Positions 12,466 through 55,934 of a DNA stretch of 64,000 bases are shown piece by piece. How positions within the stretch are numbered: position 1 is the stretch's first letter; each line of letters begins with the position of its first letter. Position numbers and translations under genes: made by a program. The notes beneath the pieces were generated by a model. The model had not been told where the DNA came from. It searched no databases and was given only the letters and a program-made list of their open reading frames with translations. The DNA lies in assembly GCA_963855995.1 (NCBI GenBank), contig OY979716.1, positions 37,845,624-37,909,623 on the forward strand, read 5' to 3'. This DNA comes from Muricea muricata (taxonomy: Eukaryota; Cnidaria; Anthozoa; Malacalcyonacea; Plexauridae).

Positions 12466-12770
12466 GGCCGTAAGAACCACGGGGGCAGGGGGGGCTCGGG
12501 CCCCCCTAACTTCAAAGGCAGGGGGGCTGAGCCCCCCTAAAAAAGATCTTTCAGTCCCGAAGTTAATACATGCTTTTAATGGTTTACAATGTTACACATG
12601 TATTAATCCAATGATTATGGTAAAACTAACCTCAAAAGGGCAGAAAAGCATGTTTGAATGTGTTAAAAATAGAAAAAAATTTCTGGGGGGCGTGTCCCCG
12701 GACCCCCTAGCAGCACTTGTGTCTTCATCGCTCGAAGAGCCCCCTTAACTTTTTTCATCTTCCTACGGCC
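12466..12770. mobile_element. G-rich 305-bp insertion inside the E1 left arm
   Basis: It starts GGCCGTAAGAA and ends TTCCTACGGCC, short imperfect inverted termini. It contains several GGGGGG(G)CTCGGGCCCCCC-like palindromes unlike the AT-rich surroundings. E1 arm similarity resumes beyond it. The plus-strand frame over it is an artefact of the repeat. No clean target duplication is visible. Confidence 0.55.
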
Positions 12771-13505
12771 TTGTGTTGTTTTGTATTTTATGTAAGATAA
12801 TTGTGGACATTGGCCGAACATTTTGCTATGCAAATTCACACGACCTTATTTTCCTCGTCAGTGTTGTAAGTCATAATTTTTCTCAGTAGCATCTTTTTAA
12901 TTTAATGGTGTTATTTAAATATTTGTTTCAATGAGGCTATTGATTAGTTATTAATCTGAGTCATGTTTTTGCAACATCCAGCGAGAGTGGTATACAACAG
13001 CTCTCAATAAAACTGGGATTTTTTGGTAGTTTAGTATAAATGGAGGTTTATTGATACCTCACATATAATAGTTGACTTATAAGATTAATCTCTAAATTCT
13101 CTTGCACAGACCTTGGAAAATTTTTTAGTTTTAAAATATTAGTTTCTAGTATTTGATACATGTATTAGGGCACCATTGGCTTCTTAAGACCCTAGCTTAA
13201 TAAGTGTGCCCTGCTTATTTTTCTAAATTTTTTAATGCCAAACAATTTAAATTGTCAGTGGAACAGTTCTGAAGTTTAATGGATTAATTGATTTAAGTGA
13301 CATTTAAAAGTATATTCAGAAGTAGTCTTCCTCCCGATCCTGTAGCAACAGAGCTGTGTATGCAAGCTGGCTTGGTTGAAACACATAGCTTCATATCTTA
13401 GTTTTTAAGATTACATAGTATAGGAGCTACAACACAGTTAAAATCATCGATGACAATAAAAATCAAATTCCCTTACAGATTCCCAGAAATAAATGTAGAA
13501 GCTTA

Positions 13506-13652
13506 CAGTAGATTAGCCAGCCTGAAGATTTAAGTCCTGCAATGCAAATATTTTTATATTCATTGACTGTGAAAAGAGTCCATTCGTAAGAAACGAATAA
13601 TGACAACAACTTGAAATTTGCATAGCAGGACTAAATGGTCAGGCTACTGGGG
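13506..13652. repeat. MITE, family 'TTTAGTCC', copy 1
   Basis: An inverted repeat with inner arms ...AGTCCTGCAATGCAAAT and its complement around ATTTGCATAGCAGGACT, enclosing a conserved CATTCATTGACTG-like segment. A second copy lies at 33083-33238. This copy sits in the interior of E1. Confidence 0.7.
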
Positions 13653-13878
13653 GCTGAGTTAGTTATTATAGCAGCTGAGTTAGAGGCTTTGTAGAAGACT
13701 GTAGCATACCATTACAGTATCATACTGGAAATTTCAACTGCACAGTGTGTAGTGTTAATACGATAAATTTCTCAGCTGAAAAGCGAATGTAAAAGTTATA
13801 CTATTAAGTAACGCCTGGAGATACATCTGCACACTTTAACACCATGTAATGATGTCATATTTGTAGCTCTCAGAGATC

Positions 13879-14079
13879 TTACACAGCCAAAAATCAGAAG
13901 CTGTTGAAAACAGTATGCAACAATGTTTTGGGGGCAACATTGTTCAATGTTGTCAGCAATATTTATTGTTCAGTCTTGTTATTGCAGGCTAATTCAGACT
14001 CAACAATATTGTTGACAACCAAGGAACAGTGATCCTGTTTTCAACAACCTTTTACAACGCATAATTTCTTGCTGTGTAA
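13879..14079. repeat. 201-bp palindromic MITE with TTACACAGC ends
   Basis: The outer ends TTACACAGC/GCTGTGTAA are perfect inverted repeats. The inner arms TGTTGAAAACAG and their complement, plus multiple CAACA/TGTTG blocks, continue the foldback. No coding content. It lies inside E1. Confidence 0.65.
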
Positions 14080-16569
14080 TATAACTGTAATGCTTCGAGC
14101 CACATCAGTGATCATTTCCAATCTTTTTTTCTTTCGTTATACAATATTGTGTTAGTACATTGTTGGTTTGGATATTGGATAGCACTATCAACCAGATAAA
14201 TATTTTAAATCAACACAAAAAATTTTTACAAAACTAGAAAACTAGCAGCTTAATAAAAAATCAACTTTACATGGTTTTATAAATACTATAGAATTTAATG
14301 ATCTTAGTTTGAGTTTTACCATTAACTAAACAATTTCAGAAAGTTTAAAAAACTATCATGTGCATAGTGCCATCCACGTTTAGTAGAACTTTTACCTGGA
14401 ATGTAAAACCTACTATAACCCAGATACACTTGTACTGAAACATTTCTCAATGGTGATATCTTATCATTTGTTAACATTCAAGTATAAGGTAAAAATGCAC
14501 TACAGTAGTCTGTGCCTAATATGCAATGTTTAGTACTTTTTACACCTTTAACACTACTCACACTTCACACTATTAACAAAAACTGAAATTAATATAATAT
14601 AATTATATATATCAAAAGTGATATTAATATGACTGACAGCATATATACAAAATAGGGTAATAAAAATTGCGTAGCAGACCATTTGGCCAATGTCCACAAT
14701 TCTCTTGCATAAATAAACAACATAAATAAGAATACATAAATATGGAATCATCAAGCCAACATTTTATATGTATTTTTCGTTGGAAAAGTATGATTTCATA
14801 AAGTCCGTGACTAAAACAATACAAAAATGCCTGTATCCACGAGAAAACCCCTTGCTAAGAGACTTGGACAAGTACAATAATTGTAAATAACATGAAGTTT
14901 CCAGGGGGGAAAAGGATCGATTTTTGATCGTAAATTACAAAAAAACTGCAGGTTTTTGGAAGTGACAACATTAAAATTCGAATTCAGCACATAAAAGTCC
15001 ATAGAATCATATCAAGAAAAAGTAGTTGGGAAACTGGGGCAACGAAAATCATTTTCTAAATGACTTTTGAAGTCACAGAATACGGCCTAATTCTATTACT
15101 ATTAAACCAATCGAGCCACAATGCACCCCAGTCCAGCTCACTCATATTTTTTACTTGTCTTATGCCAGATTATTCTATTTACTCTTCAACAGGAAAGCTC
15201 TGCATCATTATGGCTAAGACAATTTAGTAATTAGCTGTACATATTTTAATTAATTTTTTAACGTTACTTATAAAAAAACTATAATATTTTTTTGCATAAA
15301 AAGATTCAATAAATTTTGCCTAAGTTAAAAACAGATGCAATTATTAATCAAACTTTCATTTACAGGAGCCTGACCATGGGTAAGGAGAATGGAATTGATT
15401 CATTGTATTCTACTTAGCTCATGGCATCTTAGGTACATAATGATGCCATAAATTAAGCATAAGGCAGGCTCTTTTTTCTCACTTTTATATCCAGGAGCAC
15501 AGACAGGATATTGTTCACCACAGGAAATCTGGTAGACAATTCATTTTTTACATCAGACATCCAATTATCGATTGTCATTTTTTCATATGACCCCTCTCAT
15601 AAAACCGACGGTTCAGTTCGTCCAGCAACTTCTGCGAGCTCTTTGTTAGCCTTATCTATTATAGTTCATGAATCAACCTGATGAACAAATAACATATTTG
15701 ATGATAGAAAGAATTCAGTCCTACTTTTAACAGAAACAGGATATAAAATTACACAAAACAGATGTTGCAACAAAGGCATGCATTATTTAAGATTTGATAC
15801 AAATGAATTATTTATGAGATTCAAAGTCAATTGACTCACATTTTTGGGCATAGGCCATGATATCTGTTCGGTTGGTACAAGGGATGATCATTTATCACCA
15901 GTGGAAGAAACGTTTGCGGAGTCAAACATCAAATGGCATCTGCGACTTTCCACTGCAGCAACTTTGACAGAAGGTCTCAAGACGGATGGAGATATTTCGA
16001 CATATCGCTTTGAGCAAGAATCTTTTAATAAGGATTTCTGTGTTTCAGAGATAACATTCTTGAACGAAATTGTATTATTCACTCTTCGTTCACAAGGTCG
16101 GCAGACTAAAGACGGAAAGCCATCAACATGCGAGAGATCCTCGCCAAGAATTAATTTGACGTTTTTCAAAATTATTTGATTTTTGTTGCTGAATAGGTTC
16201 TTACAGTGTCTTGGATCTTGTACACCATTACATAATCGGCAACGAGACAAATTTTCAGTTGAAGTATTTTTATAAACCTTCTTTGGCATGCTTTTACTAG
16301 CCATCGCCCATCAGCGTAACTTTGCCAAATATAAGTGTCGATACACTTAAATTTGATATATTCATTTTCCTGGTGAGTAATTTAATACTCTTTCAGCAGG
16401 GACACATAATTATTAGTCGATATTTCACCAATTTCTTTAAAATATTTGTTAACATAGTCTTGCAAACAATCATTTGCTTTAATTACAAAAATTTCAATAT
16501 GTACCAATTCATTTACTTCCCACTTTTCCCTAAGTGACAATTCTACTTAGCACCCAAAATCTGGGAGCC

Positions 16570-16636
16570 ACATGACCAGCAGGAACCAGGGTTATTCCGC
16601 AGCGAGAGCGAAGTTATTACCTTGGGTACGAGGTTG
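16570..16636 (-). repeat. Degenerate TIR of element A
   Basis: The reverse complement begins CAACCTCGTACCCA and follows the TIR of element B for its full 67 bp with about seven mismatches, including the inner GGAAT...CCCTGG segment. The outermost base is 16636. It abuts a broken coding fragment, whose CCGTTCGTG (16637-16645) is the likely 9-bp target sequence. Confidence 0.85.
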
Positions 16637-23151: not shown

Positions 23152-25215
23152 GAAACGTTCTTCTGCGACAGCAGTGTCGGATTCTTTAGAAAAAATGGGT
23201 AACAGATAATTATTATATAGCTTTATATGTAGTATTTTGATATTCTAACTTGGAATTGTAGTAGTTTAATAATAAAAAATAGAAGATAGTCCAAAGATTA
23301 GCATCTTGAAACCCAGTATAGGGATTAAAACATGACGAGAATAAGTTTTTGACATTTCAGGCAGGCTGAAGTTACAATAACGCGTGTCGGAAATTTGGTG
23401 GACTGACAATTTATTCTGGACTGCAGGAATTTTAAGGTCAATGTGTCTAAATGCCACATTTTAAACACAACATGACCCTTTCAGACACACACTGTGGCTT
23501 TTAAACACAATATGTCCGTTTGGTATGCAAATTAAACACATCCTGTTTGTTTCAGGTTGAAAACAAACACTTTGTGTTTAATAGTATCTGAAAACAAACA
23601 CAATGTGCTTGTTTTCTGTAACACCAGACTAAGATGAAAACTAAGACGGAAATCCATGCATAATTCAATTAAGTCGATGACAGGCAAACACTTGATATAA
23701 AAGATAGAAATCTTATTTATTAACTTCTGTACTTCTGTACCATATTTTTAGCACGATATTTATGTTTGTACATGTTATGAAGCATTTTGGTGCAATAATT
23801 GAATCGAATGAACATCTTAGAAAAATATAGAGGACATATGAATGGCTTAGTATAGAGCACAATCAGACTAAGTTAATATATTCGGAATCATGCATGAACA
23901 CTGACAAAAGCGCGAGGTAATACGAAGGCTTTCTATGCTATAGCCTAAAATAATAGTAATTACAGCATTGAACGAAAAGGCGAACAATTTAAATCACTAT
24001 AAACGCCAACCATAAACAGTGTCGCAGTGATTAACCCGCGCTATGTTATTGCCTACATATAGGTACACCGTACCCGCAACTATCGGTATATACATTTCGT
24101 GGACATTCACAAACCCTTTGGACTTAATATTAAATCCGCGCAAACATTCTATAGTCAACACATATATTAACAAGTGAAATGAAATGAGATCGTGTTTGTT
24201 TAGAATGTGGATTTTAAACACAATGTGACTGAAATGCAAGTCAAGTGTTTACTTGTTTTTAGATCCAGTTTAACGCATTAAGGCATTGATAAACGAGGAC
24301 GCTATGTCAAAAATACACGTTCGCGTAAAATACTGCTTTTAACTGCAAATATTTAAACTAATAGACACGCCACGTGTGATATGACTTCCTACATGCAGGG
24401 TGTGATTAATAGTTGAACATCGTTTGTCTCTAATAAACTTAATTTCCGATGCAAAGTATCCAGAAAAATCAGCAAGTCTACTTTCATAGCCCGACTATAG
24501 GGGGTTTATTCGGTTTAAGAATTGTATTTGAATCAAATTCAACATAAATTTTAACATCGAAATGCATCATTTACATTTACGTTATTAATCGACCTAAAGC
24601 AATAGTTATAATTTCTGTCTGTTTTTTTTTCGCGCAAGACTTATTCTCCCATGCGTCCACTCTAAATTTTACCAATTGTTACAAGTCTTACAGGCCTAAT
24701 TAGGCTTATCTTTCTATGCGTCTCAATGCAAACAAAACGGCAATCCGCTTTTTATGTGTACTCGATCGAAACAAAATGGCTGTATATAAGCTTTCTAGGC
24801 GTACCCGATAAAAACTAAATCACCATACACAGATACGCTTTCATTAAGACTGGTGTGGTGGAAAATGTACTGTATTGTGATTGCAAACGTGCGTTCTAAC
24901 ATGCGTACTCGATCCGTGTAACTCGATCTCGATAGAATTAAGTTTGATAATGTTGATACACGTGATGGTGGTTATTTGAATCAAACTTGATCGAATAGAG
25001 AAAACGAAGTATGCGTATGTCATGTCGGTTAGTTGTGATCAGTGTTTGAAGCCTATAAGCAGCCATTTTCGTTTGGATTGAAAACGCAGAGAAGTTTATA
25101 GAAATCGTACAGCCGTTTTGTTACTATGTACTAAAAATGGCCTCATTGACATTGTTAAAATCTTGATGTGATATTACGGCACAGCTTGCATACGTATTTA
25201 CGCCATCAATATTAC

Positions 25216-26250
25216 GTTCGGTACCAGAAGCCATAAATAAACGCTTATCCAACATATCATCAGATAAGAATGCTTTTGACTAATTGACTCAACTGTTTCC
25301 CAATACCAAGAAGCTTTACGTAGAAGCGGCTACAATTATGAACTACAATACAACCCCCAATCATCAAAACCCAAACGCTCAAGAAGCATTAATGTCACAT
25401 TAATAATGTGATACGGATTAACCCTCTCTACAATTCAACAGTAAGCACCAACGTTGGCTATAAATTTCTGTAAGTTATCGACGATTTGTTTGGAGAGTCA
25501 TCATCCCTTAGACAAAATATTCAACAAAAATACTTTAAAATAAGAGTACAAGACGCCTGCCAAAACGAAAATGGGCATTGGCTGTAACTAGAGCGTTCAA
25601 TGGGGGGTATGGTATATTCACTTATTTCTGTTCTGCCAAACGAATTCCTTTTTAAATACAGTTATTATTAGGGTACCTTCCAAGGCATTTTAAGACATTG
25701 CTAGCACATCTTATGTAATCACTAAGATAACCAAAAATCAATGTCTGGACTTGCCAGGCACTCTGCCCAGAGTCCTAGCAAGATTGCATTTTTCAATAAT
25801 TCACAAACAAATGAACACAGTGACGGATTAAACGCGTGACCAATGCAACTGCCGCCAACAAGGATGTCTGTCCTTTCCAGAATAAGTGTTTAATGACTAA
25901 TGTTGTTTACCAAGCAACGGTTACGACAAACGAAAGGCAAACGTATGTGGGGCACACAGCGGGAGAGTTTAAGACACGATACAGCCGGCACACCAGCTCC
26001 TTCAGAAACTCCAGATACAAAGGCATGCGATGGAGTTGAGCAAATTTATCTGGCGTCTCAAAGATTACAACATAAAATATTCAATTATATATAAAAAAGT
26101 GGGCAAAATTAGCAAAATGCAACAGCTGCTCGAATAAAACCAAACGCTGTCAACTATGCCTGCACGAGAAATTTCTGATTATCTACCATCCGAACCTTGT
26201 CTCTTTGAACTCTAGAATGAACTTTTATTGAAATGTAGACATCGCAACAA
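25216..26250 (+). pseudogene. Penelope-like element remnant: RT C-terminus plus GIY-YIG endonuclease (left arm)
   Basis: At 25216 a VPEAINKRLSNISSDKNAF-like segment matches the region after the reverse transcriptase palm in Penelope-like elements. It degenerates through several stops to about 25560. The GIY-YIG part starts near 25836 with CPFQNKCLMTNVVYQ, then TYVGHTAGEFKTRYSRH (the YVG...R..H core) and SSFRNSRY, and loses frame at KGMRWS. The expected continuation (LSKFIW, then a KCRHRN-like tail near 26230) is readable only in other frames. Usual PLE proteins are well over 500 residues, so this is a 5'-truncated, dead copy. Confidence 0.75.
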
Positions 26251-26362
26251 AACCCCCTTGAGCAATAAACAGTTTATTGAAAGCATTGCAATACTATCCG
26301 TTTAGTATAATCGCAATGACGTCAAACATGTATATCCTAGGCAACAATGCGCGCGAATATTT

Positions 26363-26427
26363 AAATTCACCTGATGAGTGAGGCAAGCTTCTGCTTGTTA
26401 AACGAAATAAATTTGTATTGAATTAAA
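26363..26427 (+). ncRNA. Degenerate hammerhead ribozyme (left arm)
   Basis: Order of parts: stem I strand AAATTCAC, core CTGATGA (26371-26377), an imperfect stem II with AAGC/GCTT and an inner mismatch, core GAAA (26404-26407), a TAAATTTG segment, TA, then TTGAATT as the second stem I strand. Compared with the right-arm copy, stem II has two mismatches and stem I one, so activity is doubtful. It lies about 100 bp after the GIY-YIG remnant, where Penelope-like elements are known to carry hammerheads. Confidence 0.6.
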
Positions 26428-27728
26428 ATTCAAATGCAATAATTCAAGTCTGACTTATTCTGATGATCGCCTATATAAGCGCGTGAAACTCCAAGTAGCG
26501 AAAGAAAAATTAAGTATTCGTTGTCCTTCTTGTCTATATATATAATAAAGAATGACACAAAAACTTAGCAAGCTTTGTTTGGCATATTTATTATTTATAT
26601 ATAGTTCGTACTACACAATTAACGTAGCACTCCTCAGATAAAATAGCCTGTGTTTGCCCTCTAGCTTCTAACAAACTTTTTAAATATGTACAGATGGTAT
26701 ATATGTATGCTTATCTAATTTCAGGTCAATTAACACCTCAAATAGTGTCACGAAAAAATTCGTGTCAGGTTATGAAGTTTTCAAGCAAATATTTCTCAGT
26801 GTGTCTACACTCCACACGTGGAGACATGACGCATCGCAATCAGAGCGCGGCTGAGCAGTTTTGCTGTAGTGGCTCGAGTAACCATGGGAAATAATGTCAG
26901 TATAATAGGTCATGCGAGTTGGCTTTACACCTATGGCATATCATGAATACTAATTAGGATTGCACATTTTAGAGTTTTTCACGTTCATTAGTATTCTTTA
27001 TATAATGTTACATCCTAAAATTTGGCATTACTATGCGGAGTATTCAAAACACCAGAACTAACGTCGTATCATATCTAAAACGCTTTGCTGCCCGTCGTGG
27101 TTTAAATGTGATACAACACTTAATATTACATAAAATAGCAGATAGTGCGAATGCAGGAGCAGCTGATAAATAATGAATGTGATTATACTTGAAATTCTGT
27201 TCTAGTTTCAATTACAGATGTTATTCAAGATGGTGAGCACACATCAATGTACAATGCCCTGTTTTGTGATGAATTTCATTGCTACAAATTAACACAGTGT
27301 GATTAAATCGGTATAGACTATAGTTAAATAAAAACGTTTGATGATAACACATGTCACATGCAATAATTACATGCTCGGTCATGTAAAACTAATCACACAT
27401 AGTCAAGCAATGTCGAAAAAATATGAGCAGGTCAAATTTAATAACCTGACAACAGGAGGTTTATGTTTCGTGTGTAGAACGAAATAAAGCGAATTCAAAC
27501 AAATTTAAATCAAGTTCAAATATATAGTGTAAATGTCGTCTGTTGCTATATAGTATAAAAATATAGTATAAATGTTGTCTATTTCTTTTTTCTAGAAATT
27601 AGTAACTTTCGTAGCTCGTCTTGGTTTAACAAAAGTATTATTCCACCCCCCCCTAAACTCAAGCTCAATTTTAGTGCTAAACACTTGAGATAGATCAAAA
27701 CTGTCTATTGACCTTACTTGATTTTGTC

Positions 27729-41600: not shown

Positions 41601-44299
41601 CGCAGCACTAACATTTATTGACTGTTGTCAGTGGCCACATGACTCAAATTTAACCATCAATATTCTTTTGCGGACGTTGGTATTTTTTCAAACAAAGGTA
41701 CTTTAACTTTAATTGCATGTGTGCATAAAAAAGCGAAAAAAAATAAGAGTTAGGCAAAGTCATCATGAGAATATCGCAACAGGCACAATAACACCATATA
41801 TAGAAAAGATTTCCTTGATCATTTCTAGTCTTATGCAACTTCAATAATTTGTGATGTACATATAGCTGGGCAAAGGTATGGTAATGTTGACCGGTGTGGC
41901 AGGCAAATTTTAATGATCACGATAAGTCTGTAATAACCAATTATCTCTTTGACAATTATTTTTACAGTTTGGACAGCTTCCTCCGATTTTGTACATTCAA
42001 ATGGACAATTGCTATCGCGAATGCAAAAACAAATATGTACTGGCTTTTTTAAGCATTCTTGTTAAGATGGGATTCTTCAAAAAGGTACACATTAATTCAT
42101 ACACTGCCGTTAATGTACGTGCTTCCCACAAGTTTAGTCATTAGACATTATATATGTTTGATAAGCAAAATGTTCGCTTCACATAAGCTTTCGTTTCGGG
42201 ACACGTGCATCAAAGTTTTTAGCCACTATTAAGAGAAACAGTATTTAAACACACGTCAAAATACATATTTTAACGTTTGAAAATGTCAGAGAATAAAATA
42301 ATATGTTGTAATTAAAACGGTATATTAAGGCCCGCCGATCACTGACGTTGAACTTTTCGTGTGCCGAATCTAATGCGAGTAAACATTAGGCTCGGCACAT
42401 GAAAAGTTTGGCGTCTGAAACAGGCCTAAATTTATAAAATAAACTTCTCGTAAGTAAATTGAATTTCTTCAACACTCGGAATAAATTTATATTTCCTCAC
42501 AATTATGTAAAATATTCTCTTTATATACATATATATTTTTAAATCAAGCTTTCATTTCTGATGGTCGGTCACACTCATGAAGATATCGACCAAATGTTCT
42601 CGTGTTTCTCCCGCCATCTCAGCAAACAGGACGCTCGAACTTTGCCTAAACTTACGGCTGAAATGGCAAAAGCATACACACCAGAGCCATCAAACATCCT
42701 TCTTAATTGCATGTTGGATGTTAAAAAGTGGATGGATTGTCATATTGAGCAAAAAGTTTCAGGTCACATTAACCAACATCAGTTTAAATTTATAACCTGC
42801 AATGGAGAAGTGGTCACATTTTATAAGAAGTGGTCAACATCACCGAAATGGCTACTCTGCAGCCCACCTGATGAAACCTGTGGGTTGACATTGGTACATA
42901 GCTTGCCTACAGGTATACTTGAGGTCATTACACCAAATTGCGACAAAATACCCTTGGCCAAACTCAAGCAAGATATTGGCAAACTTTCCGCCAAGTTTGA
43001 CAAAGTCACGGACATTTGGTGGGAAAATTTTTTAAATGACCTGGAGCACTTGACAACTCGAATAGAAACATGGTTTCTCGAGCGTATAAAGAAGATCGAA
43101 GAAGGCTTGCCGACACAGCAGAGCAACGTTACTGATGAGGAAGTCAGAATAAGCAATCAAATCGAAACTTTGATGGAGAAGGGAACTGCTGAAACGGAGG
43201 TATTATATGTTTCCTTAATTCTTTATATATGCAGTATACGATGTTGTAAAATTAACAATAAGCCTGCTAAGCCCTAAGGCGGTCATTCCGCATGCCTCCT
43301 TGTGCTGCTCAGAAGACACAAAAAGCCTTTTGCTCGTTCCTAAAGAGCTATGCCGTTGTACCAGCAAAAGATTTGTGATATGCTGAGTTAACGAGTAAAA
43401 TTTAAAGTTTCTTAGGTGGAAATACGCTGGAAACATTGTCTATTGTGTAACTCAAAACTTTATAAATTGAAGCGCATCTTGCTCCTAAAGCTACGCAACA
43501 GAACTTATCATTTGAAATTTGTCGTTTCAATTTTTAAGACATTTCATTTGGGTCGTTTTGCATAAAGAACCTTCTTAATTGTCGCTTTTGCTCACAATAT
43601 CGATGCTAAAAAGATATTTCAGTATAGAAAATGAGTTTGATAATCTGATTGGCAAGTGCGTACGATTCAAAACTTCCTCACATTGACCTTGCTCCTTCGC
43701 GATCTATATTCGCGTGAACCTGTCAAAATTTGTGGTTTCAAATTAAAACATTTTGAGTGACAATTAGTGCACAGAAAACCTTGTCACCATTTCAGTATTC
43801 ATGTTAAAGTACTTGTTAAGATATTCTGCAAAAAAATGCGTTTAAACGTTGTGTTTATCGCAGGAAGCTATAGCAGTATCACCAATGAGCAGGCGCCTAA
43901 CTTTCGACAGGGGATAAAACAGAAACGGGGGAACTTATGCCCTAAGATAAGGCAGGTTATTAATTAAGAGAAAACTTTGCATGCTGTATTACCACGGCAG
44001 TTATGTATGTTCGTATTTTTGATTTTTCTGTTATATCATACAGCGAAACTCCAGTGGTGTCTATTCACATCAGTGAATGATGCCGATTTAAACTGATCAT
44101 AGTGGTAAAAATATTTTTGCGTGATTCTTATAACATCTGCCATATCTCCGTCTGTTTTATGTTGACACAACCAACACAAAACTTTAATTTTTGATTTTTT
44201 AATTTTCAGGTTGTTATACATGCGCCGGAAAACAAACGAAAAGCTGCGGCCAATATAATGGAAAACGCAAACAAAAAGAAAAGAAAGACCAAGAGATAA
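38657..44299 (+). CDS. DDE-like transposase-type gene (DUF7869-like), 12 exons
   Basis: Exons: 38657-38722, 38935-39042, 39122-39229, 39471-39492, 39714-40022, 40318-40618, 40841-40965, 41315-41444, 41539-41697, 41968-42084, 42549-43199 and 44210-44299, ending in TAA after a Lys-rich tail. Every junction has AG and GT and the phases fit. An acidic N-terminus precedes a Cys-rich CNCTIKCSCLE patch. KCTICELLK is a second Cys pair. Three acidic sites, IDGMDQSKHNLPH, IQMDNCYRECKNKYV and MVGHTHEDIDQMF, have the order and spacing of an RNase H-fold DDE triad (my inference). The family resembles DUF7869 proteins abundant in cnidarians. Frame breaks are confined to three A-runs (39741, 39777, 40585), so it is either a young pseudogene or intact with assembly indels. 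A start at the ATG near 38684 is plausible but not proven. Confidence 0.72.
42327..42427. repeat. 101-bp palindromic repeat in an intron of the DUF7869-like gene
   Basis: Arms containing GAACTTTTCGTGTGCCGA and the near-complement TCGGCACATGAAAAGTTT close on a short loop, with outer AGGCC/GGCCT ends. It sits in the intron between 42084 and 42549. Confidence 0.65.
43200..44209. other. Last intron of the DUF7869-like gene
   Basis: 1010-bp intron with GTATTA donor and TTTTCAG acceptor. It contains two loosely similar segments of about 250 bp (near 43480 and 43690) sharing CTTGCTCC and ATTTCAGTAT-type blocks, perhaps an old tandem duplication. No exon seen. Confidence 0.5.
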
Positions 44300-45413
44300 A
44301 CTATACATGCATGTTATAGTTGTAACATAACCTGTGTTATTTGAGACGTTTTTGGGCAAATTAACAGGTAGAGAAGTTTACAAAACATGCAATCCATGTT
44401 GTTCCAGCACTCGTTACCAATGGCTTGCAAATAACTGGCTTTATTGATACATTACTCTTAAATCACATTGCGTTTAAAATAGTGAAGTCAGGTTGTGTTT
44501 GAACTCCACATTCTAAACCCATTGCTATCCCGCAGCGCATAGTGTTTATCACAAAACAAGGCATTGTACACTGATGTGTGCTCTCCGTCTTGATCTGTAA
44601 TTGAAACTAGAACAGAATTTCAAGTATAATTACATTTATTTCTCAGGTGCTCCTGAGTGCACGTTCATGCATGTATAGTTTATCTCTTCGCGCTATCTAC
44701 TATTTTACTACTGTAATATTAAGTGTTGTATCATATTTAAACCGCGACGGGCAGCAAAGCGTTTTAGATGTGATAGGACGTTAGGCTGGTGTTTTGAATA
44801 CTCCGCATAGTAATGCCAAATTTTAGGATGTGGCATTACATAAAGAATACTAATAAAAGTGAAAAATTCTAAAATGTGCAATCCTAATTAGCATTCATGA
44901 TACGCCATAGGTGTAAAGCCACCTCGCATGACCTATTATACTGACATTATTTCCCATGCTTACTCGAGCCACTACAGCAAAACCGCTCAGCCGCGCTCTG
45001 ATTGTGATGCATCATGTCTCTACATGTGGAGTGTAGACACACTGAGAAATATTTGCTTGAAAACTTCATAACCTGACACGAATTTTTTCGTGACACTATT
45101 TGAGGTGTTAATTGACTTGAAATTAGATAAGCATACATATATACCATCTGTACATATTTAAAAAGTTTGTTAGAAGCTAGAGGGCAAACACAGGCTATTT
45201 TATCTGAGGAGTGCTACGTTAATTGCATAGTACGAACTATATATAAATAATAAATATGCCAAACAAAGCTTGCTAAGTTTTTGTGTCATTCTTTGTTATA
45301 TATATAGACAAGAAGGACAACGAATACTTAATTTTTCTTTCGCTACTCGGAGTTTCACGCGCTTATATAGGCGATCATCAGAATAAGTCAGACTTGAATT
45401 ATTGCATTTGATT

Positions 45414-45480
45414 TTAATTCACTACAAATTTGTTTCGTATGACAAGCAAAAGCTTGCCACACTCATCAGGTGAATTTAAA
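45414..45480 (-). ncRNA. Hammerhead ribozyme, type I, near-perfect (right arm)
   Basis: Read on the minus strand: stem I strand AAATTCAC, core CTGATGA, an 11-bp stem II (GTGTGGCAAGC pairing GCTTGTCATAC, two G-U pairs) closed by TTTT, core GAAA, palindromic stem III CAAATTTG, then TA as the cleavage dinucleotide (GUA), then GTGAATT, which pairs perfectly with the first stem I strand. All invariant core residues are present. The very short, self-complementary stem III is the arrangement known from hammerheads of Penelope-like elements, which act as dimers. Located just downstream of the GIY-YIG remnant. Confidence 0.85.
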
Positions 45481-45639
45481 TATTCGCGCGCATTGTTGCC
45501 TAGGATATACATGTTTGACGTCATTGCGATTATACTAAACGGATAGTATTGCAATGCTTTCAATAAACTGTTTATTGCTCAAGAGGATTTTGTTGCGATG
45601 TCTAAATTTCAATAAAAGTTCATTCTAGAGTTCAAAAAG

Positions 45640-46420
45640 ACAAGGTTCGGATGGTAGATAATCAGAAATTTCTCTTGCAGGCATAGTTGACAGCATTTGG
45701 TTTTATTTGAGTAGCTGTTGCATTTTGCTAATTTTGCCCACTTTTTTTATACATAATTGAATATTTTATGTTGTAATCTTTGAGACGCCAGATAAATTTG
45801 CTCAACTCCATCGCATGCATTTGTATCTGGAGTTTCTGAAGGAGCTGGTGTGTCGGCTGTATCGTGTCTTAAACTCTCCCGCTGTGTGCCCCACATACGT
45901 TTGCTTTTCGTTTGTCGTAACCGTTGCTTGGTAAACAACGTTAGTCATTAAACACTTATTCTGGAGAGGACAGACATCCTTGTTAGCGGCAGTTGCATTG
46001 GTCACGCGTTTAATCCGTCACTGTGTTCATTTTTTGGTTAATTATTGATTTATTGTGGCTAGACATTATGCATTTCACGTTAGGCATACAGCTGTAGGTT
46101 GATTTTAAACTATTTCTGTTGAATATTTTATGGAAGGGATGATGACTAGGAAAACAATCGTTGATAGCTTGCAGAAATTTTTAGCCAATGTTGCTGTTGG
46201 TGCAATTCAACAGAATTGTAAAGAGGGTTAAACCATATAACATTAATGCTTCTTGAGCGTTTGGGTTTTGATGATTCAGGGTTGTATTGTAGTTCATAGT
46301 CGTAGCCGCTTCTACGTAAAGCTTCTTGGCATGGAGAAACAGTTAAGTCAATTAGTCAAAAGCATTCTTATCTGACGATATGTTGATAAGCGTTTATTTA
46401 TGGCGTCTGGTACCGTACGT
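45640..46420 (-). pseudogene. Penelope-like element remnant: RT tail plus GIY-YIG (right arm)
   Basis: Inverted counterpart of 25216-26250. The GIY-YIG segment reads CPLQNKCLMTNVVYQ...TYVGHTAGEFKTRYS at 46005-45802 and breaks at the same RWS point as the left-arm copy. Upstream, the RT tail is present with similar decay. It is non-functional as a protein. Confidence 0.75.
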
Positions 46421-47352
46421 AATATTGATGGCCGTATAATATTACATCAAGATTTTGACAATGAGGCCATTTTCAGTACATAACAAAACAGCTGTACGAT
46501 TTCTATAAACTTCTGCGCGTTTTCGATCCAAACGAAATGGCTGCATATAGGCTTTCAAACACTGATCACAACCAACCGACATGACATACGCATACTTCGT
46601 TTTCTCTATTCGATCAAGTTTGATACAAATAACCACCATCACGTGTATCAACATTATCAAACTTAATTCTATCGAGATCGAGTACGCATGTTAGAACGCA
46701 CGTTTGCAATCACAATACAGTACATTTTCCACCACACCAGTCTTAATGAAAGCGTATCTGTGTATGGTGATTTAGTTTTTATCAGGTATGCCTAGAAAGC
46801 TTATATACAGCCATTTTGTTTCGATCGAGTACCCATAAAAAGCGTATTGCCGTTTTGTTTGCATTGAGACGCATAGAAAGATAAGCCTAATTAGGCCTGT
46901 AAGACTTGTAACGATTGGTAAAATTTAGAGTGGACGCATGGGAGAATAAGTCTTGCGCAAAAAAAACCCAGACAGAAATTATAACTATCGCTTTAGGTCG
47001 ATTAATAATGTAAATGTAAATGATGCATTTCGATGTTAAAATTTATGTTGAATTTGATTCAAATACAATTCTTAAACAGAATAAACCCCCTATAGTCGGG
47101 CTATGAAAGTAGACTTGCCGATTTTTCTGGATACTTTGCATCGGAAATTAAGTTTATTAGAGACAAACGATGTTCAACTATTAATCACACCCTGCATGTA
47201 GGAAGTCATATTACACGTGTCTATTAGTTTAAATATTTGCAGTTAAAAGCAATATTTTACGCGAACATATATTTTCGATATAGCGCGTCCTCGTTATCAA
47301 TGCCTTATTAATGCGTTAATAAACTGGATCTAAAAACAACTAAACACTTGAC

Positions 47353-47419
47353 CAACCTCGTACCCAGGGTAATAACTTCGCTTCGCTGCGGAATTACCCT
47401 GGTGCCGGCTGGTCACGTG
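47353..47419 (+). repeat. Left TIR of element B with internal hairpin
   Basis: 67 bp identical to the reverse complement of 54315-54381. Inside it CCAGGGTAAT and ATTACCCTGG are inverted, so each terminus can itself fold into a hairpin with a TTCGCTTCGCTGCGG loop. It likely contains the transposase-binding site. Confidence 0.95.
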
Positions 47420-47688
47420 ACACCCATATTTTGGGTGCTAAAAAAATTTGTCACCTAGGGAGGTGTAGCATGTAAATGAATTGTTACATACGGAAACATT
47501 TCTGAAATTTTTGTAAAATAAATGGTTACTTTTGAAGCGTTATAACAATATTTTACTGCTAAAAGAAATTGCTTAAAAACCTACAAATAATTATGTGTCC
47601 GTGCCGAAAGAGTATCAAATTACTTGACAAGAAGATGAATGTATCACATTTCAGTGTATTCACACTTGTATTCGACAAAGTTACGCTG

Positions 47689-50600
47689 ATGGCCAGCAAA
47701 AGCACGCCAAAGAAGGTTTATTCTACTTCAACTGAAAATAGTTCTCATTGTCGGCTATGTAATGGTGTACAAGATCAAAGACACTGCAAGAACCTATTCA
47801 ACAAAAAAAAATCAAATAATTTTGAAAAACGTGGAGTTAATTCATGGCGAGAATCTGCCGCATGTTGACGGTTTTCCGTCTTTAATCTGCCGACCTTGTG
47901 AACGAAGAGTGAATAATTCGATTCTTTTCAAGAATATTATCTCTGAAACACAGAAATCCTTATTAAAAGATTCTCGCTCAAAGCGATGTGTCGAACTATC
48001 TCCATCTGTCTTGAGACCTTCTGTCAAAGTTGCTGCAGTAGAAAGTCGCAGACGCAGTTTGACGTTTGACTCCGCAAACGTTGCTTCTACTGGTGATAAA
48101 TCATCATCCCTTGTACCAACCGAACAAATGTCATGGCCTATGCCCAAAAATGTGAGTCAATTGACTTTGAATCTCATAAATAATTCATTTGTATTAAATT
48201 CCTAAATAATAATGCATGCCTTTGTTGCAATCAATGCAACATCTGTTTTGTGTAATTTTATATGCTGTCTATTTCATATCCGTTAAAAGTAGGACTGAAT
48301 TCTTTGTATGATCAAATATGTTATTTGTTTATCAGGTTGATTCATTGGCTATAATAGATAAGGCTAACAAAGAGCTCGTAGAAGTTGCTCGACGAACTGA
48401 ACCCTCGGTGTTACGAGAGAGGTCATATGAAGGAATGGCAACCGATAATTGGATGTCTGATGTAAAAAATGAATTGTCTACCAGATGTCCTGTGGTGAAC
48501 AATATCCTGTCTGTGCTCCTGGACACTGGATATAAAAGTGAGAAAAAAGAGCCTGCCTTATGCTTAATTTATGGCATCATTATGTACCTAAGATGCCATG
48601 AGCTAAGTAGAATACAACGAATCAATTCCATTCTGCTTACCCATGGTCAAGCTCCTGTAAATGTAAGTTTGATTAATAATTGCATCTGTATTTAACTTTG
48701 GCAAAACTTATTGAATCTTTTTATGCAAAAGAATGTTGTAGTTTTAATAAATTGTCTTAGCCATTATGATTCAGAGCTTCCCCATTGAAGAGTAAATAGA
48801 ATAATCTGGCATTAGACAAGTAAAAAAAAATATGAGTGAGCTGGACTGGGGTGCATTGTGGCTCGATTGGTTTAATAGTAATAGAATTGCTTGTTCTGCA
48901 AATGCAATAAATGCAAGTCATTTCAAGTTTTTCTTTTACACAAGATCACGTCTGAATTTTGTTCATAAAATAGCACTTATGCGGGTTTTCCCTAATGCTA
49001 TTGTCCTTACCACCAAGTCTCACTTTGATGTTAGGAAATTTGTCCGTCACTACGAGGCTTGGTGGTGAGCGCAATAGCCTTAGGGAAAACCCGCATAAGT
49101 GCTGTTGATGTAGTAATGACAGTGGTGATTAATAGTTCAAATCATCAAAGAACCCATTATTGCTATTCATTTTGACTATTTTAATGCTCTTCATTTGACA
49201 GCTGTTCTTGCATTAATCATTGTGCATTGTATACCCTAATGGTAAATTGTATAATTCCGAAGTTACTTGTATATACCAAGTCAATCCTTATAATTTGACT
49301 GTGTATAAATACAACTACCTGGCCTGATTTTACTTTTATTATATATATAATTTCTTACTTAAGGTATAATGTATTCTCTTTTTTAGCTGATTGATCGTTT
49401 AAATAAATATGGCATCTGTCTACATCCAAGAAAGAAGTATAACCTCCTTGATGACATTGGCCAAGGTTTCCTGGATCAGGCCATTGAATTAGTCAAGTCT
49501 GGGTACAAATTTGTATTCGTTTTGGACAATATTGACTGGGACGAGAAGGTTCACGATATGAGAAAGGATACCCAAAACAAAAGTGTGCATGCGATGGCAA
49601 CAACTATTGTCTTCAATCGAATTCCTGATGAAAAATTACCTGATGTAGCCCCGCAGGATTTGAGAAAATGTAATGTTCATCAGTTGGTTAAGGTCAACGT
49701 CTCAGAGATGGAGTGCATAAGAAAGCGTTATTGTGTTATCCTACAAAATCTACTGTTTGAACATTTTCCATTCTTCAGCTCCTTCCAAAACGATTTGTCT
49801 CCCCATATTACCCCTTGTCGTTATTCTGATGAAATGGCAGAGAAGTCAAAAACATTCACTATGCCCATTGTGATGAAGGACGAAAAGAAATATGCTGAAT
49901 GTGTTGATCTGCTGGACCAGTTAGAACACTGGACACATCAAATATACTCTGCTGCTGGAATGTGCCATTTGAATGAATCAACCCATTCAGATTCAGTTCC
50001 TGCTTCAGCCTCACCTACCTGGCTCTCATGTGCCACCTACTTCATCTGTAAGACCCATTGCATGGAGTTAGGGTCCCAATTTTTGGTGACCAGCTTACTC
50101 GGGTCCGGCTGGCTGGTGCAAAAGATCTTCGTGTTGGCTGCCATACAGCTCAACAACGATTTGATCATTTGTATCCAATCTGCATAGTTGACTGGCACAC
50201 GAAGAGGAGCTATTTAAAGGTAAATAGTGTGGCTCTGCTAGTATGCATGCTAATGGCATTGTACATAGATTATAATGCCCAAAATAACATTGTAAGTATC
50301 AAAATACAATCAAAGGTGGAACAATGCTTCTCATGCAATTTCATGTTTATTCTGTTATTAAAATGCAGTGTTTACAATGCTACATTGTGTTTTTACCAAA
50401 TAACTGTATGAAATCAAAGTTTGTAAGTAACTGCATTTTGGAATAATTGAATTGCATTGGGTTTGCATGTCTATTCAGCCTCTGTAGTTTTCTACCCTTG
50501 TATGCTTAGATAATTTTATTTTAATGTTTATAGAGTGTGTTCAAAAGATTGTACAAGAGCTCTGTTAGAGAAAAAGGTACCATCAGGTATTTTAGAGAGA

Positions 50601-51571
50601 AATTGAATCGGCGCAACGTAACTGCTGATGTAAAGCATTTTGAGGATTGCGAACAATTGTTCATGAGCATTGGTAAATGTTTCATAGTTGAAGCCCTTTT
50701 GGAGTTTTTCCAAATGGCTGACACTAAGCAAACACCTTTGCAGAATGCCCCCAGTTCTCTGGATGAAGAACAGAAAAATGTGTACATCATCACTACCATT
50801 GAAAAGTTCCTTGATGAGTATGTTTTTTCTGCCACTGAAGATTCCGATGATGCAACTTCAAGAGATAGTGTTTATTCATATGCTGTTAATTTGATTGTTT
50901 CTTTCTTGGTATTGGCTGATTTTAAGGATGCTGTAAAATCTGGCAATGGGGACTATCTAGCAGTGTTACGAAAGCAGCTCCTCATACATTTTTTTAGCGC
51001 TCCTGGTTACAATGAATTTGCTATAGAGATGTTGACCAACATATTGCAGTGTCAAGTTCTCCTCACTGAACAAGAAGCACATCAGTGTAAGTGGGCAGCA
51101 ACGGTAAATTGGAATGGTGGTTCTCATAAAAACATTGAAATTGATCTATTCCAAGAGAACCAGAATAGTGAAATGAAAAAAATGATCAAAGCTATGGGAG
51201 CCAACAAATCAGAGAATGCTATTTCTCGAGCAAGCCAAGCTTGCACTGGTGTGAGAAAGATTGTTGAATCTTTTGAAGCCCAGGTAAATGTTCGCAGAAA
51301 GTCCTCTGCCCATTCTCATCAGTCTGCTTTGAATGATGAGAAAATTATACTTGAAGACTTGAGAGATTTAAGACCTTTCAAGAAGATCATTGGTAGAGAG
51401 TTTGAAAGTTTTCAGAATATTTCCCCTAATCCAACAAAGAAATTCAACAGTGCTAAATTTCAGTCTTGGATTGACAGACACACCAAAAACATTTTACTTT
51501 ATTATCCTGCTTTTGAAAGTGATGATGAAGATGATCAACAAGATGATATTTTTAATGAAAGTGGACAATGA
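47689..51571 (+). pseudogene. DUF6589 / ZAD-like transposase-type gene (copy B), nearly intact
   Basis: Four exons with good splice signals: 47689-48151, 48336-48662, 49387-50219 and 50534-51571. Residues 1-60 form a ZAD-like zinc module (CRLC...CRPC). Exon 2 carries a WMSDVKNELSTRCP helical region. Exon 3 holds the DUF6589 core with LDNIDWDEKVHDM, and GDQLTRVRLAGAKDLR in the other frame. Exon 4 carries REKGTIRYFREKLNRRNVT and an acidic C-terminus. The LDN and GDQ aspartates are candidate DDE metal ligands (inference). Lesions: one extra A in an A9 run near 47805, and a deletion with small indels at about 50010-50045 that removes a Pro/Thr-rich linker still present in copy A and shifts frame. 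Otherwise open throughout. Presumed role: the transposase of element B. Confidence 0.85.
48972..49103. repeat. Small inverted-repeat MITE in DUF6589 intron 2 (copy B)
   Basis: Arms GCACTTATGCGGGTTTTCCC and their complement AGGGAAAACCCGCATAAGTG. Same element and position as in copy A, so inherited from the common ancestor of A and B. Confidence 0.8.
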
Positions 51572-51813
51572 TTTTGAATTTTACAAATGCCAGTTGCAAA
51601 GTAGTCATACATAGATTCTAACCCCATTTTCTACTAGTACCACATTTATGTACAGTACATTGTCTTGCACTTATCCAATTTATCAAGTAGTTTTGCACAA
51701 ATGGAAAATTTCACCACAAAAACTTCTGCTAAAATATTAGAGAAAATTTATTCTGATTTACACATTGTATATACATGTTTAGCATAACGTTTTGTGGAAA
51801 GTTCAACATGTTA

Positions 51814-52086
51814 CAGTCGATTTCAGCTAGCTTTTCACTGTAACACTCCGAACTTTGTTGCGAAGTTTGGAAGTTCGTTGCGAAGTTCAAAAGTTCATTT
51901 CAGAATTCGCAAACCGGTTTGTAAACTAAGCATTTGATTGGCTTCTTTGAGTCCAGGGGCCAATCACAATCTTAGTTTACAAACCGGCTTGCGAATTCTG
52001 AAACGAACTTTTGAACTTCGCAACGAACTTCCGAACTTCGCAACGAAGTTCAGGTGTTACAGTGAAAAGCTAGCTGAAATCGACTG
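51814..52086. mobile_element. 273-bp MITE with TA target duplication, private to copy B
   Basis: TIR CAGTCGATTTCAGCTAGCTT at 51814, complement ending ATCGACTG at 52086. TA flanks lie at 51812-51813 and 52087-52088. Copy A has the undisturbed site. The interior contains GTTGCGAAGTT-like repeats, themselves in inverted orientation. The TA target suggests Tc1/mariner-type mobilisation. Confidence 0.88.
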
Positions 52087-52101
52087 TAAAAGTTAACTCT
52101 G

Positions 52102-52312
52102 GGGCTGGTTGCATAAAAGGGGGACAGTGCTATCCAAAGGATAGTGACTTTTTCAGAAAACTATAAAAATCACACCAAAGATGTAAATGATGTCTTTAAC
52201 TTGAAAATAGTGATCTGTTATCTTAAAGTTAGTACAGCTACAGAAATTTGACAGTTTGAAAAGGTCACTATCCAGTGGATAGCACTATCCACCTTTCATG
52301 CAACCTGCCCCT
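52102..52312. repeat. 211-bp inverted-repeat element in the B 3' region
   Basis: Arms GGGGCTGGTTGCATAAAAGG and GTGCTATCCAAAGGATAGTG pair with the complement ending ...CATGCAACCTGCCCC. In copy A only the first half exists (7276-7390), and this is exactly where A is truncated. Confidence 0.75.
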
Positions 52313-52483
52313 GTTTCCTAAAATATGTTTTTACAAAAAAAGCTATTTAGTCCTGTCAATTTGAATCACATTGGGATATTAAGTAAATCTTTTTATATCA
52401 TTATAAAATTATTTGTACATATTAAATATAATCAACAAAACAAAACACAGGTCGAACTAAATCTTTGAGTACAAAATTTCTGT

Positions 52484-54061
52484 TCACAATTCTTCAAAAT
52501 CTTGAAGTATTTGTTCAAAACACTCTGAACACTTGCATGCCTTCTCACATACAGAGCAACATAGGTGTAAAGGTTCTTTTACAATGTTATAATCATAATC
52601 AAGGGCCTTAAGAAGTTTTTTCCTCAGGCAATCATTAGTTGCATGGCAAAACTCTCTCATATCACTTTGCATGATTGATCGATTTGTAGCAATATCTCTG
52701 TTATTGTAGTATAAAATTGCGTCAGCTGGTTTGCCATCACGACCGGCTCTACCTGTTTCTTGGAAATACTGTTTTACAGAACAAGGGGGGCATACATGAA
52801 TAACTTGACGGATATTTGGTACATCCACTCCCATTCCAGTAGCAACTGTTGCAAATATGACATGAACAATGCTATTAGTTGAGCACATCTGCTGCAGGAT
52901 TTTCACTTTCATCTGTGATGTTTGAGGTGCATGGAATTGTGCAAACAGCCTGTTTTCTGGTATTGCACGTGCACCTTCAGGATAATACTGATTCTGACCA
53001 AGGATTGACAATCTATAATAACTGAAATAACCTATAAGCAAAGCCACACCATCTAAGAGGCAAATAAATGACTGTTAATGGGAAGTTCTGTTTTGATGTC
53101 AACAATTGGTCGGCAATTGGTTTTAAAATAGACTGGACTATATCAATGTCCTTTCCAGATCGAAAAACTTTTCTATAGAAAATATTTGATCTGTTCGGGT
53201 TGCTAGTAACCAACTTGCATCTTTTTAAACCAACTGATTGTTTTATTTTACCAATATCAGACACACTGGCTGTTGCCGTCATTGCAAGAACAGGGATGTC
53301 TGGAAAAGATGTACAGACAACACCAAGTTTTCCATAGTCTGTCCTGAATTCACTGCCCCTAAAATGATTTAAAAATATGCGTTGAACGGCCTTAAAAATA
53401 GACTGCAATTTACACACAATATCTGCAGAAATACCCAATTAAATCTCCTCAAGTTAGGCTAGAACATAATGACTTACCAATCCAATATACAGTGTGCCTT
53501 GTCGACAACAATGGAAACAATGCGCTTTTGGTAGACCTCACTAAGGATTAAACTACGTCCAAATCTGGTTGATATAAGCGACTCTGGGTGTGCAAATACA
53601 ATATGGTATTGTCCACTTTCGAGTTGATCTTTCTCGCACAGTCTGAAGTCACAGTCATATGAACTATCAACGTTCTCTTCAACAGGGTTCTTCACATCTT
53701 TGACAGAAATGGCTGACGCTCGGAGACCACTTAAACCCAGTCGAGATATCTGATCTTGTATCAGGGCATTTAATGGCGATATCACAATAATAATTGATGA
53801 AACCTCTTTAGCAGTGATTCCAAGCGCTTTCCATCGAACAATTAAGTCATCTTGTTTATTATTTCTTGCGAACATTAAGCATGGAATAAGATGAAAAATC
53901 AAAGATTTCCCATAACCGGTTGGTAGTATGCAAATAAGATCGTTGCCCATATAAATAGTTTCCAAACAAACGACTTGTTTGGGCTTTAGAATTATATTAT
54001 TGTACGCACTGTTGAGAATTGCGAATTCCAAACAAGTCAAAAAAGCGATAAATTCGAGCAT
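52484..54061 (-). pseudogene. RecQ-like superfamily 2 helicase gene of element B
   Basis: Two exons, 54061-53478 and 53358-52484, joined in frame through a GTAAGT donor and a TTTTAG acceptor (DW|GSEFRTDYGKLG). Motif I is ILPTGYGKS, motif II is DKAHC (the usual DEAH Glu is Lys), motif III is MTATAS, motif V is VIFATVATGMGVD, motif VI is QETGRAGRDGK, followed by a Cys-rich CCSVCEKACKCSEC tail like the RecQ zinc region. One frameshift near 53030 separates the domain-2 start from the rest. With the Walker B substitution and frameshift this copy is probably dead, but the family is clear. It converges on the DUF6589 gene and lies wholly within B's TIRs, so it belongs to the transposon. Presumed role: strand unwinding or end processing during transposition. 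Confidence 0.85.
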
Positions 54062-54314
54062 CTTCTTGCGCTAAATTAACGTTTTGCCAAAGATGAATGA
54101 ATACATTTAAGGGTCTACCGCAACATGTGGCAAGCAGGCAACATGTTTTCACGCAAAATACCATCAATGTAAGGCTTTGTAAGCTCATGTTACACATGTC
54201 ATACCTGTCTGATTGATAAACAAGCGCGATCGCTTCCTGTAGTGGAAGCGCAAAGTGGAAGCTTTGTAATTTGATACTTGTCTACCCCCCTTGGTAATTA
54301 AAACATTCTCGAGC
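54062..54314. other. Short region between helicase gene and right TIR
   Basis: No further exon is obvious. An ATG-led minus frame (54197-53997) overlaps the helicase start and looks like a shadow. It presumably holds the helicase promoter. Confidence 0.4.
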
Positions 54315-54381
54315 CACGTGACCAGCCGGCACCAGGGTAATTCCGCAGCGAAGCGAAGTTATTACCCTGGGTACGAGGTTG
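54315..54381 (-). repeat. Right TIR of element B
   Basis: Reverse complement identical to 47353-47419 over 67 bp, including the internal CCAGGGTAAT/ATTACCCTGG hairpin. Followed at once by the target duplication ACACTTGAC. Confidence 0.95.
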
Positions 54382-54390
54382 ACACTTGAC

Positions 54391-55560
54391 TTGCGTTTCA
54401 GTCACATTGTGTTTAAAATAGTGAAGTTAGTCAGGTTGTGTTTAAAATCCACATTCTAAACAAATTGCTATCCCGCAGTGCATAGTGTTTATCGTATGCA
54501 AATAAAATTGTGCCAAGATTGCAAACTGCAGCACTATGCACTGACATATAAGTATCAGCAAAAAGTTAGGAATAAAAATGAACAAAGATCTAATATCCAA
54601 AAGAATTGGCTGTAACAAGGCACACAAACTGCAAACATGGATGGGGATTAAACAAAGCTAAAAAGGTAAATTTTCATATATTGTAACCATTTATTCGTCA
54701 CTTAGCGCTGTTTTCGACAAGCGGACCGCATTTGATGCAAATGGCTACAAACGATCTCATTTCATTTCACTTGTTAATATATGTGTTGACAATAGAATGT
54801 TTGCGCGGATTTAATATTAAGTCCAAAGGGTTTGTGAATGTCCACGAAATGTATATACCGATAGTTACGGGTACGGTGTACCTATATGTAGGCAATAACA
54901 TAGCGCGGGTTAATCACTGCGACACTGTTTATAGTTGGCGTTTATAGTGATTTAAATTGTTCGCCTTTTCGTTCAATGCTGTAATTACTATTATTTTAGG
55001 CTATAGCATATAAAGCCTTCGTATTACCTTGCGCTTTTGTCAGTGTTCACGCATGATTCTGAATATATTAACTTAGTCTGATTGTGCTCTATACTAAGCC
55101 ATTCATATGTCCTCTATATTTTTCTAAGATGTTCATTCGATTCAATTATTGCACCAAAATGCTTCATAAAATGTACAAACATAAATATCGCGCTAAAAAT
55201 ACGGTACAGAAGTACAGAAGTTAATAAATAAGATTTCTATCTTTTATATCAAGTGTTTGCCTGTCATCGACTTAATTGAATTATGCATGGTTTCCGTCTT
55301 AGTTTTCATCTTAGTCTGGTGTTACAGAAAACAAGCACATTGTGTTTGTTTTCAGATACTATTAAACACAAAGTGTTTGTTTTCAACCTGAAACAAACAG
55401 GATGTGTTTAATTTGCATACCAAACGGACATATTGTGTTTAAAAGCCACAGTGTGTGTCTGAAAGGGTCATGTTGTGTTTAAAATGTGGCATTTAGACAC
55501 ATTGACCTTAAAATTCCTGCAGTCCGGAATAAATTGTCAGTCCACCAAATTTTCGACACG
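54391..55560 (-). repeat. Right inverted arm (C2), outer part
   Basis: Continues the arm beyond element B. It carries iterated TTGTGTTTAAAA motifs (54396-54445 and 55340-55480), mirroring the left arm's outer end. An extra segment of about 330 bp at 54418-54747 is absent from the left arm; its start is similar to the inner edge of this arm near 44470-44540. Confidence 0.82.
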
Positions 55561-55934
55561 TGTTCAATATAATACACGGTCCTATATACATCCCATATCG
55601 CATGATGTCATTACAATGGAATTTGTCAGTATGGGTGAAATCACCGTACCACCAAGTGCTCAATTTGTTTAGCAACAATTGTCTGTTCAAAAACCAAGAC
55701 CAGAAACTAAAATTATTTATGTCTTGGAATGGCTTTCTATGCACAATTAGAAGTTCACTAATTTCAAAATTAAAAACAAACCATCTAATACCTACCAAAC
55801 TCGCTTAAAATGGAGATCGCTGCATATCACTGCCTTTAGTAATCAGACCGTTAAGAACAAATTCCTTTGTAATGACGTCATGTGAGAATTGTTGTATATA
55901 AGACCGTGTGTTCATATTGTAACTTTAGTTTGTG
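55561..55934. other. Unassigned stretch outside the right arm
   Basis: Overlapping frames exist on both strands (55475-55808) but none has a recognisable domain or splice support. I see no gene here. Confidence 0.5.

Follow-up and report, generated by a model that had tools for sequence, protein, structure and literature searches.

hAT elements and the P element duplicate 8 bp of target DNA, Kolobok elements duplicate TTAA, and MULEs make duplications of about 9 bp and have long terminal inverted repeats (TIRs). Kojima is said to have reported in 2020 (Mobile DNA 11:15) that AcademH belongs to the Academ superfamily. According to passages of PMC10045372, AcademH makes target-site duplications (TSDs) of 9 or 10 bp and AcademX of 3 or 4 bp, a difference that these passages relate to the presence of a helicase as against a nuclease. 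Sections of PMC10799480 trace helicase domains to AcademH, KolobokH and Helitron, with DEAD and Helicase_C given for AcademH, and according to sections of PMC10294476 its bivalve Academ consensus elements average 5565 bp. The KolobokH passages of PMC9587614 describe a RecQ helicase gene in KolobokH, which that survey records from fungi alone, and one red-algal Kolobok with its RecQ helicase on the complementary strand.

Here we describe an element in a window of 64,000 nucleotides from Muricea muricata, by which we mean the whole stretch of DNA analysed. It has defined ends, 9-bp duplications and a matching empty site, and its two genes, one for a DUF6589 protein and one for a helicase, are carried together in many copies. 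Like hAT elements and the P element, whose transposases are the nearest fold neighbours of DUF6589 (Hermes for hAT), it probably encodes a DDE enzyme, but it has no sequence-profile match to either, duplicates 9 bp rather than 8 and has a helicase partner. The TTAA of Kolobok likewise differs from its 9-bp duplications of varied sequence. KolobokH resembles it in joining a DDE transposase to a RecQ helicase but is restricted to fungi in the survey passages cited above (PMC9587614). Helitrons also bear a helicase, whereas this element has TIRs, 9-bp TSDs and a helicase of the RecQ family. With AcademH, as far as the excerpted descriptions go, it shares the 9-bp TSD, the helicase beside the transposase, the DEAD and Helicase_C domains and its presence in animals. 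The window most likely holds one copy of a multi-copy class II DNA transposon family of about 7–8 kb of the AcademH kind.

Ends, empty site and genes in the window

The TIRs of the element, at 47353–47419 (plus strand) and 54315–54381 (minus strand), are identical at 67/67 bases and differ at the 68th, confirming an earlier note on this DNA that had described perfect 67-bp repeats; the left repeat has an inner near-palindrome. Directly outside the two ends lie copies of ACACTTGAC (47344–47352 and 54382–54390), the 9-bp duplication that the note had also seen. The terminal bases are identical in sister copies at other places in the genome, and the boundaries in the window are therefore not due to chance. 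The locus is an inverted duplication (23379–27273 versus 44545–55564, from a self-comparison that left out the simple repeat with which the window begins), and only one arm has the element, which accounts for an empty site in the other. This site has one ACACTTGAC at 24240–24248 on the minus strand, and the joined flanks of the element align with it on both sides; the earlier note was right that such an uninterrupted site exists but had placed it slightly off, at 24225–24240. Slightly outside the element, the right arm has about 300 bases more than the left.

The two genes converge between the TIRs, as had been claimed, with ZAD and DUF6589 on the plus strand and DEAD and Helicase_C on the minus strand; exon limits of both genes were set from GT/AG sites and relatives and are approximate in that sense. 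On the plus strand, exon 1 (47689–48151) encodes the zf-AD (ZAD) domain, with a Pfam match of E 2.4e-5 and 24.9 bits against a cut-off of 28 that the relatives P0001, P0002 and P0005 exceed. Exon 1 has a frame break near 47805, and the ZAD region is open in a second copy in the window (copy 2). Exon 2 (48336–48662) is followed by exon 3 (49387–50219), which holds the aspartate codons of the LDN (49525) and GDQ (50088) motifs and two frame breaks near 49990–50045 that are absent from copy 2. Exon 4 (50534–51571) encodes the DUF6589 domain (E 9.4e-23, Pfam scan) and a candidate catalytic glutamate (codon at 51155). All three candidate catalytic acids are thus present in the window copy. The gene has three frame breaks in total, which are private to this copy because copy 2 differs at those places.

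On the minus strand, the 5′ part of the helicase gene (53477–54061) encodes the DEAD domain (E 2e-12), with the Walker A motif LPTGYGKS at 53903–53926 and VVDKAHC at 53489–53509. The 3′ part (52484–53357) encodes Helicase_C (E 1.5e-10; both matches are from the Pfam scan only), with QETGRAGRDG at 52733–52762 and a frame break near 53020–53030. Walker B reads DKAH in the window copy versus DEAH in 5/5 other TIR-paired copies. Between the genes lies a nested MITE-like insertion (51814–52086) with long inverted arms and an apparent TA duplication, which copy 2 lacks. The element had been called a complete transposon. Its structure is complete, but the frame breaks in both genes, which had gone unmentioned, rule out a coding-intact copy; as read, it appears unable to make either full protein, an assembly error being possible.

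Copy 2 (about 7284 to 16636, minus strand), of which the earlier note makes no mention, is truncated and decayed. It has one TIR, with its outer end at 16636, is interrupted at 8967–9892 and 11353–15089, and has a flank that differs from that of the copy at 47353–54381. Stops in its DUF6589 gene and changes of the second and third candidate catalytic residues rule it out as a working copy, and no helicase match was found in it.

Copies and gene linkage across the genome

Searching the 453-Mb assembly with the TIR gave 14 matches, forming six pairs and two singles; this DNA search skips very common words and may have missed short non-autonomous derivatives. In all six pairs, of which the window copy is one, the two genes lie convergently between the TIRs. 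The singles have one gene each beside them: the first is copy 2, with DUF6589, and the second (L015) adjoins a decayed helicase gene within the 9.9 kb fetched. Exact 9-bp duplications border every pair, and the six sequences all differ (ACACTTGAC, TATTGTTCA, CTTGCACCA, GTTTCTGTA, TGGCAAATT and TTGGACTTT). This joint carriage in six TIR-bounded copies bears out the proposal that the DUF6589 and RecQ-like families are parts of one mobile element.

The six elements fall into two subfamilies. One comprises the window copy and those on C2, C1 (23.8M) and C15, with pairwise identities of 98.6–99.7% across about 7.0 kb; the copy on C15 is 4.3 kb longer. The copies on C48 and C3 are 95.8% identical to each other and about 76% identical to the first subfamily over the alignable 3–4 kb. 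In one sister copy (L009), the aligned exons of both genes are free of stops. The presence of several near-identical copies suggests fairly recent movement of the family.

We also sought DUF6589 (PF20231) and helicase loci separately in the genome, independently of the TIR, and then merged the loci. There were 104 PF20231 matches (best 102 of 515 candidates scored) and 140 helicase matches (best 109 of 882 candidates scored), and none of 14 control genomes had a DUF6589 match. Among the merged loci from these best candidates, 42/102 DUF6589 loci had a helicase match within 10 kb, in favour of the co-occurrence for which the earlier note had proposed a check. The pair was convergent in 40 of these 42, at a median distance of 2.6 kb. 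When the helicase positions were shifted, by contrast, linked loci averaged 1.8 and never exceeded 6 in 2000 trials. The observed count is a lower bound, since C1:23.8M and C3:42.3M, both among the six TIR-paired elements, are missing from the PF20231 list.

Twenty linked loci were fetched, and termini like CAACCTCGTACCCAG were accepted with up to three mismatches. Two such termini were found in 10/20 loci, with an exact 9-bp duplication in nine of these ten and four mismatches in the other (L027). Over all copies with both termini, the TSD is thus exactly 9 bp in 15/16, extending to many copies a length first read from one. In L024, L030 and L031, a second pairing of ends is possible, with mismatches at 7 of 9 bases, and the matching pairing was counted. 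The ten copies not found through the TIR were picked for their linked genes, and helicase carriage is judged on the six TIR-found copies only.

The two proteins and a possible mechanism

The predicted fold of DUF6589 resembles DDE transposases, with Hermes and the P element as best structural neighbours, and contains an RNase-H-like core. Both proposed aspartates, those of LDN and GDQ, show almost no variation. On the predicted fold, D302, D495 and E759 are placed on the expected strands and helix, and all three are nearly invariant. These observations support the suggestion that DUF6589 is a DDE transposase with LDN and GDQ as candidate aspartate sites, and we add the glutamate of IEIDLFQE as a third candidate catalytic residue. 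The sole match of the DUF6589 profile among solved structures, O43_dn18A (E 3.1), was taken as chance, and a viral structure library gave 102 matches at E ≤ 10 but none at E ≤ 0.001. A chimeric relative, P0022, matches DDE_Tnp_4 in Pfam. ZAD is regarded as a characteristic domain of transcription factors in arthropods. None of the 12 publications listed out of 641 has a ZAD–transposase link by its title, and the literature collection searched had nothing on Academ together with XPG.

We assign the convergent second gene to the RecQ helicase family on the basis of a profile that covers the core in relatives, together with DEAD and Helicase_C in the window. Against the RecQ-family model TIGR00614 (cut-off 219.8), the relatives P0031 and P0063 score 239.5 and 228.6 bits. 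Among solved chains, those closest to P0031 are RecQ, RECQ1, BLM and WRN.

The probable route is that the ZAD-tipped DUF6589 transposase binds the TIRs, with ZAD perhaps acting as the DNA-binding or dimerisation part. The enzyme, RNase-H-like with a helical insertion and with D (LDN), D (GDQ) and E (IEIDLFQE) as putative catalytic acids, would cut at the CAACCTCGTACCCAG ends and join them to target DNA through strand cuts 9 bp apart, and host repair of the gaps would leave the 9-bp duplications. The helicase would probably unwind or process the ends, or resolve a gapped or branched product. Such a route is probably cut-and-paste rather than replicative. The near-identical copies could serve to study the part that a RecQ helicase plays in DDE transposition and the reason for the longer target duplications of the helicase-bearing lineage.

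Placement among DNA transposons

Very probably, the element is a transposon that combines a DDE transposase (DUF6589) with a RecQ helicase. We put the probability that it belongs to AcademH at roughly three in four. This placement draws only on the 9-bp TSD (15/16 copies) and the helicase beside the transposase (6/6 TIR-found copies), both of which PMC10045372 ascribes to AcademH. The lineage has probably been described already under another name; the point added here is that DUF6589 is very probably its DDE transposase.

A less likely explanation is that PF20231 is the transposase of a eukaryotic superfamily separate from Academ, a P/hAT-like DDE lineage with a 9-bp TSD that acquired RecQ independently and became a two-gene machine with ZAD as its DNA-binding part. 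Hermes and the P element as best structural neighbours are consistent with this, as is the fact that the term DUF6589 was not found in a search of a partial literature collection. However, AcademH has the same combination of a 9- or 10-bp TSD and a helicase in the passages of PMC10045372 and is named as a source of DEAD and Helicase_C domains in those of PMC10799480, and we consider a separate superfamily unlikely. If it were true, transposons may have been what spread the ZAD domain.

It is highly improbable that a MULE (MuDR), P or hAT element captured a host helicase, even though the fold neighbours are hAT and P and the TSD of about 9 bp and long TIRs are those of MULEs. No such family appears in Pfam at E ≤ 0.1 among nine relatives, seven of them with DUF6589, and a MULE transposase domain is not listed at that threshold for these or for the eight ORFs of the window. 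hAT and P duplicate 8 bp. Both subfamilies, which are about 76% identical over the alignable 3–4 kb, have the helicase in one and the same convergent arrangement, and it therefore does not reflect a single capture.

Even less probable is an element of the KolobokH type, which would join a Kolobok DDE transposase to a RecQ helicase. TSDs of 9 bp and differing sequence in 15/16 copies stand against the TTAA of Kolobok, and we consider KolobokH ruled out on TSD length. In the passages of PMC9587614, KolobokH does encode a RecQ helicase and the red-algal Kolobok helicase is on the complementary strand, but KolobokH is limited there to fungi. D[VI]KH occurs at one place in 9/18, and one point against KolobokH is therefore weak. 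That the two genes are chance neighbours and not one element is negligibly probable and was ruled out: 60/102 DUF6589 loci have no helicase match within 10 kb, but six TIR-found elements hold both genes and linkage far exceeds the shifted controls.

DUF6589 relatives were found in the octocorals Dendronephthya and Paramuricea, the stony corals Montipora and Desmophyllum, the sea star Patiria and the pearl oyster Pinctada, among the proteins listed (23/23 in one search and the best 120 of 204 in another). The TIR core had no match in viral contigs, in which none of 46 DUF6589 pattern matches was confirmed. The Pfam family of unknown function DUF6589 is likely to be part of a mobile element, and so are many coral gene predictions that bear RECQ1-, Werner-, Bloom- or mediator-subunit-34-like names among the best 120 of 996 helicase relatives; recognising this would clean up their annotation. 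Across nine same-contig pairs including the window, DUF6589 and helicase distances correlated with r 0.27 (p 0.17), rising to 0.82 (p 0.0005) without P0153/P0082 and standing at 0.57 (p 0.03) when one of the two nearest pairs was also left out; as a test of joint descent, these distances appear mixed and carry no weight in our conclusions. Taking equal contig size to indicate the same contig, we compared 128 listed DUF6589 proteins with the listed helicases minus P0087. Eight of the 128 DUF6589 contig sizes recur among 118 helicase contig sizes; when offsets of 1 to 50 bases were tried as a control, there was a single near-coincidence. In Dendronephthya, LOC114541922 (DUF6589) and LOC114541921 (helicase) have consecutive locus numbers and lie on contigs of equal size (126242).

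Helicase copies and their gene names

The RecQ-like helicase has at least 140 matches in the Muricea muricata genome, which merge to approximately 104 loci. Among the matches listed, helicase relatives from corals carry RECQ1-, Werner- or mediator-subunit-34-like gene names, and many coral genes named in this way are probably of transposon origin. A second, more distant helicase lineage likewise adjoins DUF6589, as found at two loci of the same genome, L032 (C63:1-10000) and L033 (C1:65322000-65331999), and in the protein pair P0153/P0082, which probably shares a contig. The helicases at L032 and L033 share 47-48% identity with the helicase P0033, and no paired termini were found at these loci within the fetched stretches.

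Domains joined to DUF6589

A ZAD (zf-AD) domain is joined to the DUF6589 protein in three relatives from the protein search (P0001, P0002 and P0005) and in the second, truncated copy of the element in the window (copy 2), where the domain lies at 15888-16304. According to one published source, many arthropod zinc-finger factors contain ZAD (PMC5081699); the ZAD-fused protein of P0001, P0002, P0005 and copy 2 is probably a cnidarian transposase. Another relative, the predicted protein P0022 of Dendronephthya gigantea, carries THAP, HTH_Tnp_4 and DDE_Tnp_4 together with part of DUF6589, an architecture that suggests either a chimera or a gene model spanning nested transposons. Elsewhere in the window, an ORF with a DUF7869 domain (42561-43277; E 2.1e-28) may be a further mobile-element gene.

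Insertions, palindromes and flanking repeats

Copy 2 is interrupted by an insertion of approximately 3.7 kb (11353-15047) with inverted arms of approximately 208 bp at both ends (93% identity), which, judged by its shape, appears to be a transposon. Comparison of the two window copies showed that a palindromic insertion resembling a MITE, with what looks like a TA duplication, lies between the DUF6589 and helicase genes (51814-52086) and is missing from copy 2. A palindromic stretch within an inferred intron of the DUF6589 gene (48969-49106), perhaps an old foldback insertion, is also present in copy 2.

The host locus itself is duplicated in inverted orientation (23379-27273 versus 44545-55564), with 89-98% identity in pieces and arms approximately 17 kb apart. 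The window opens with a perfect (TACAC)n array (1-5572; approximately 1,114 units, 100% match). A pentamer array of this length with no mismatches could have arisen through the assembly or could represent a satellite of very recent origin.
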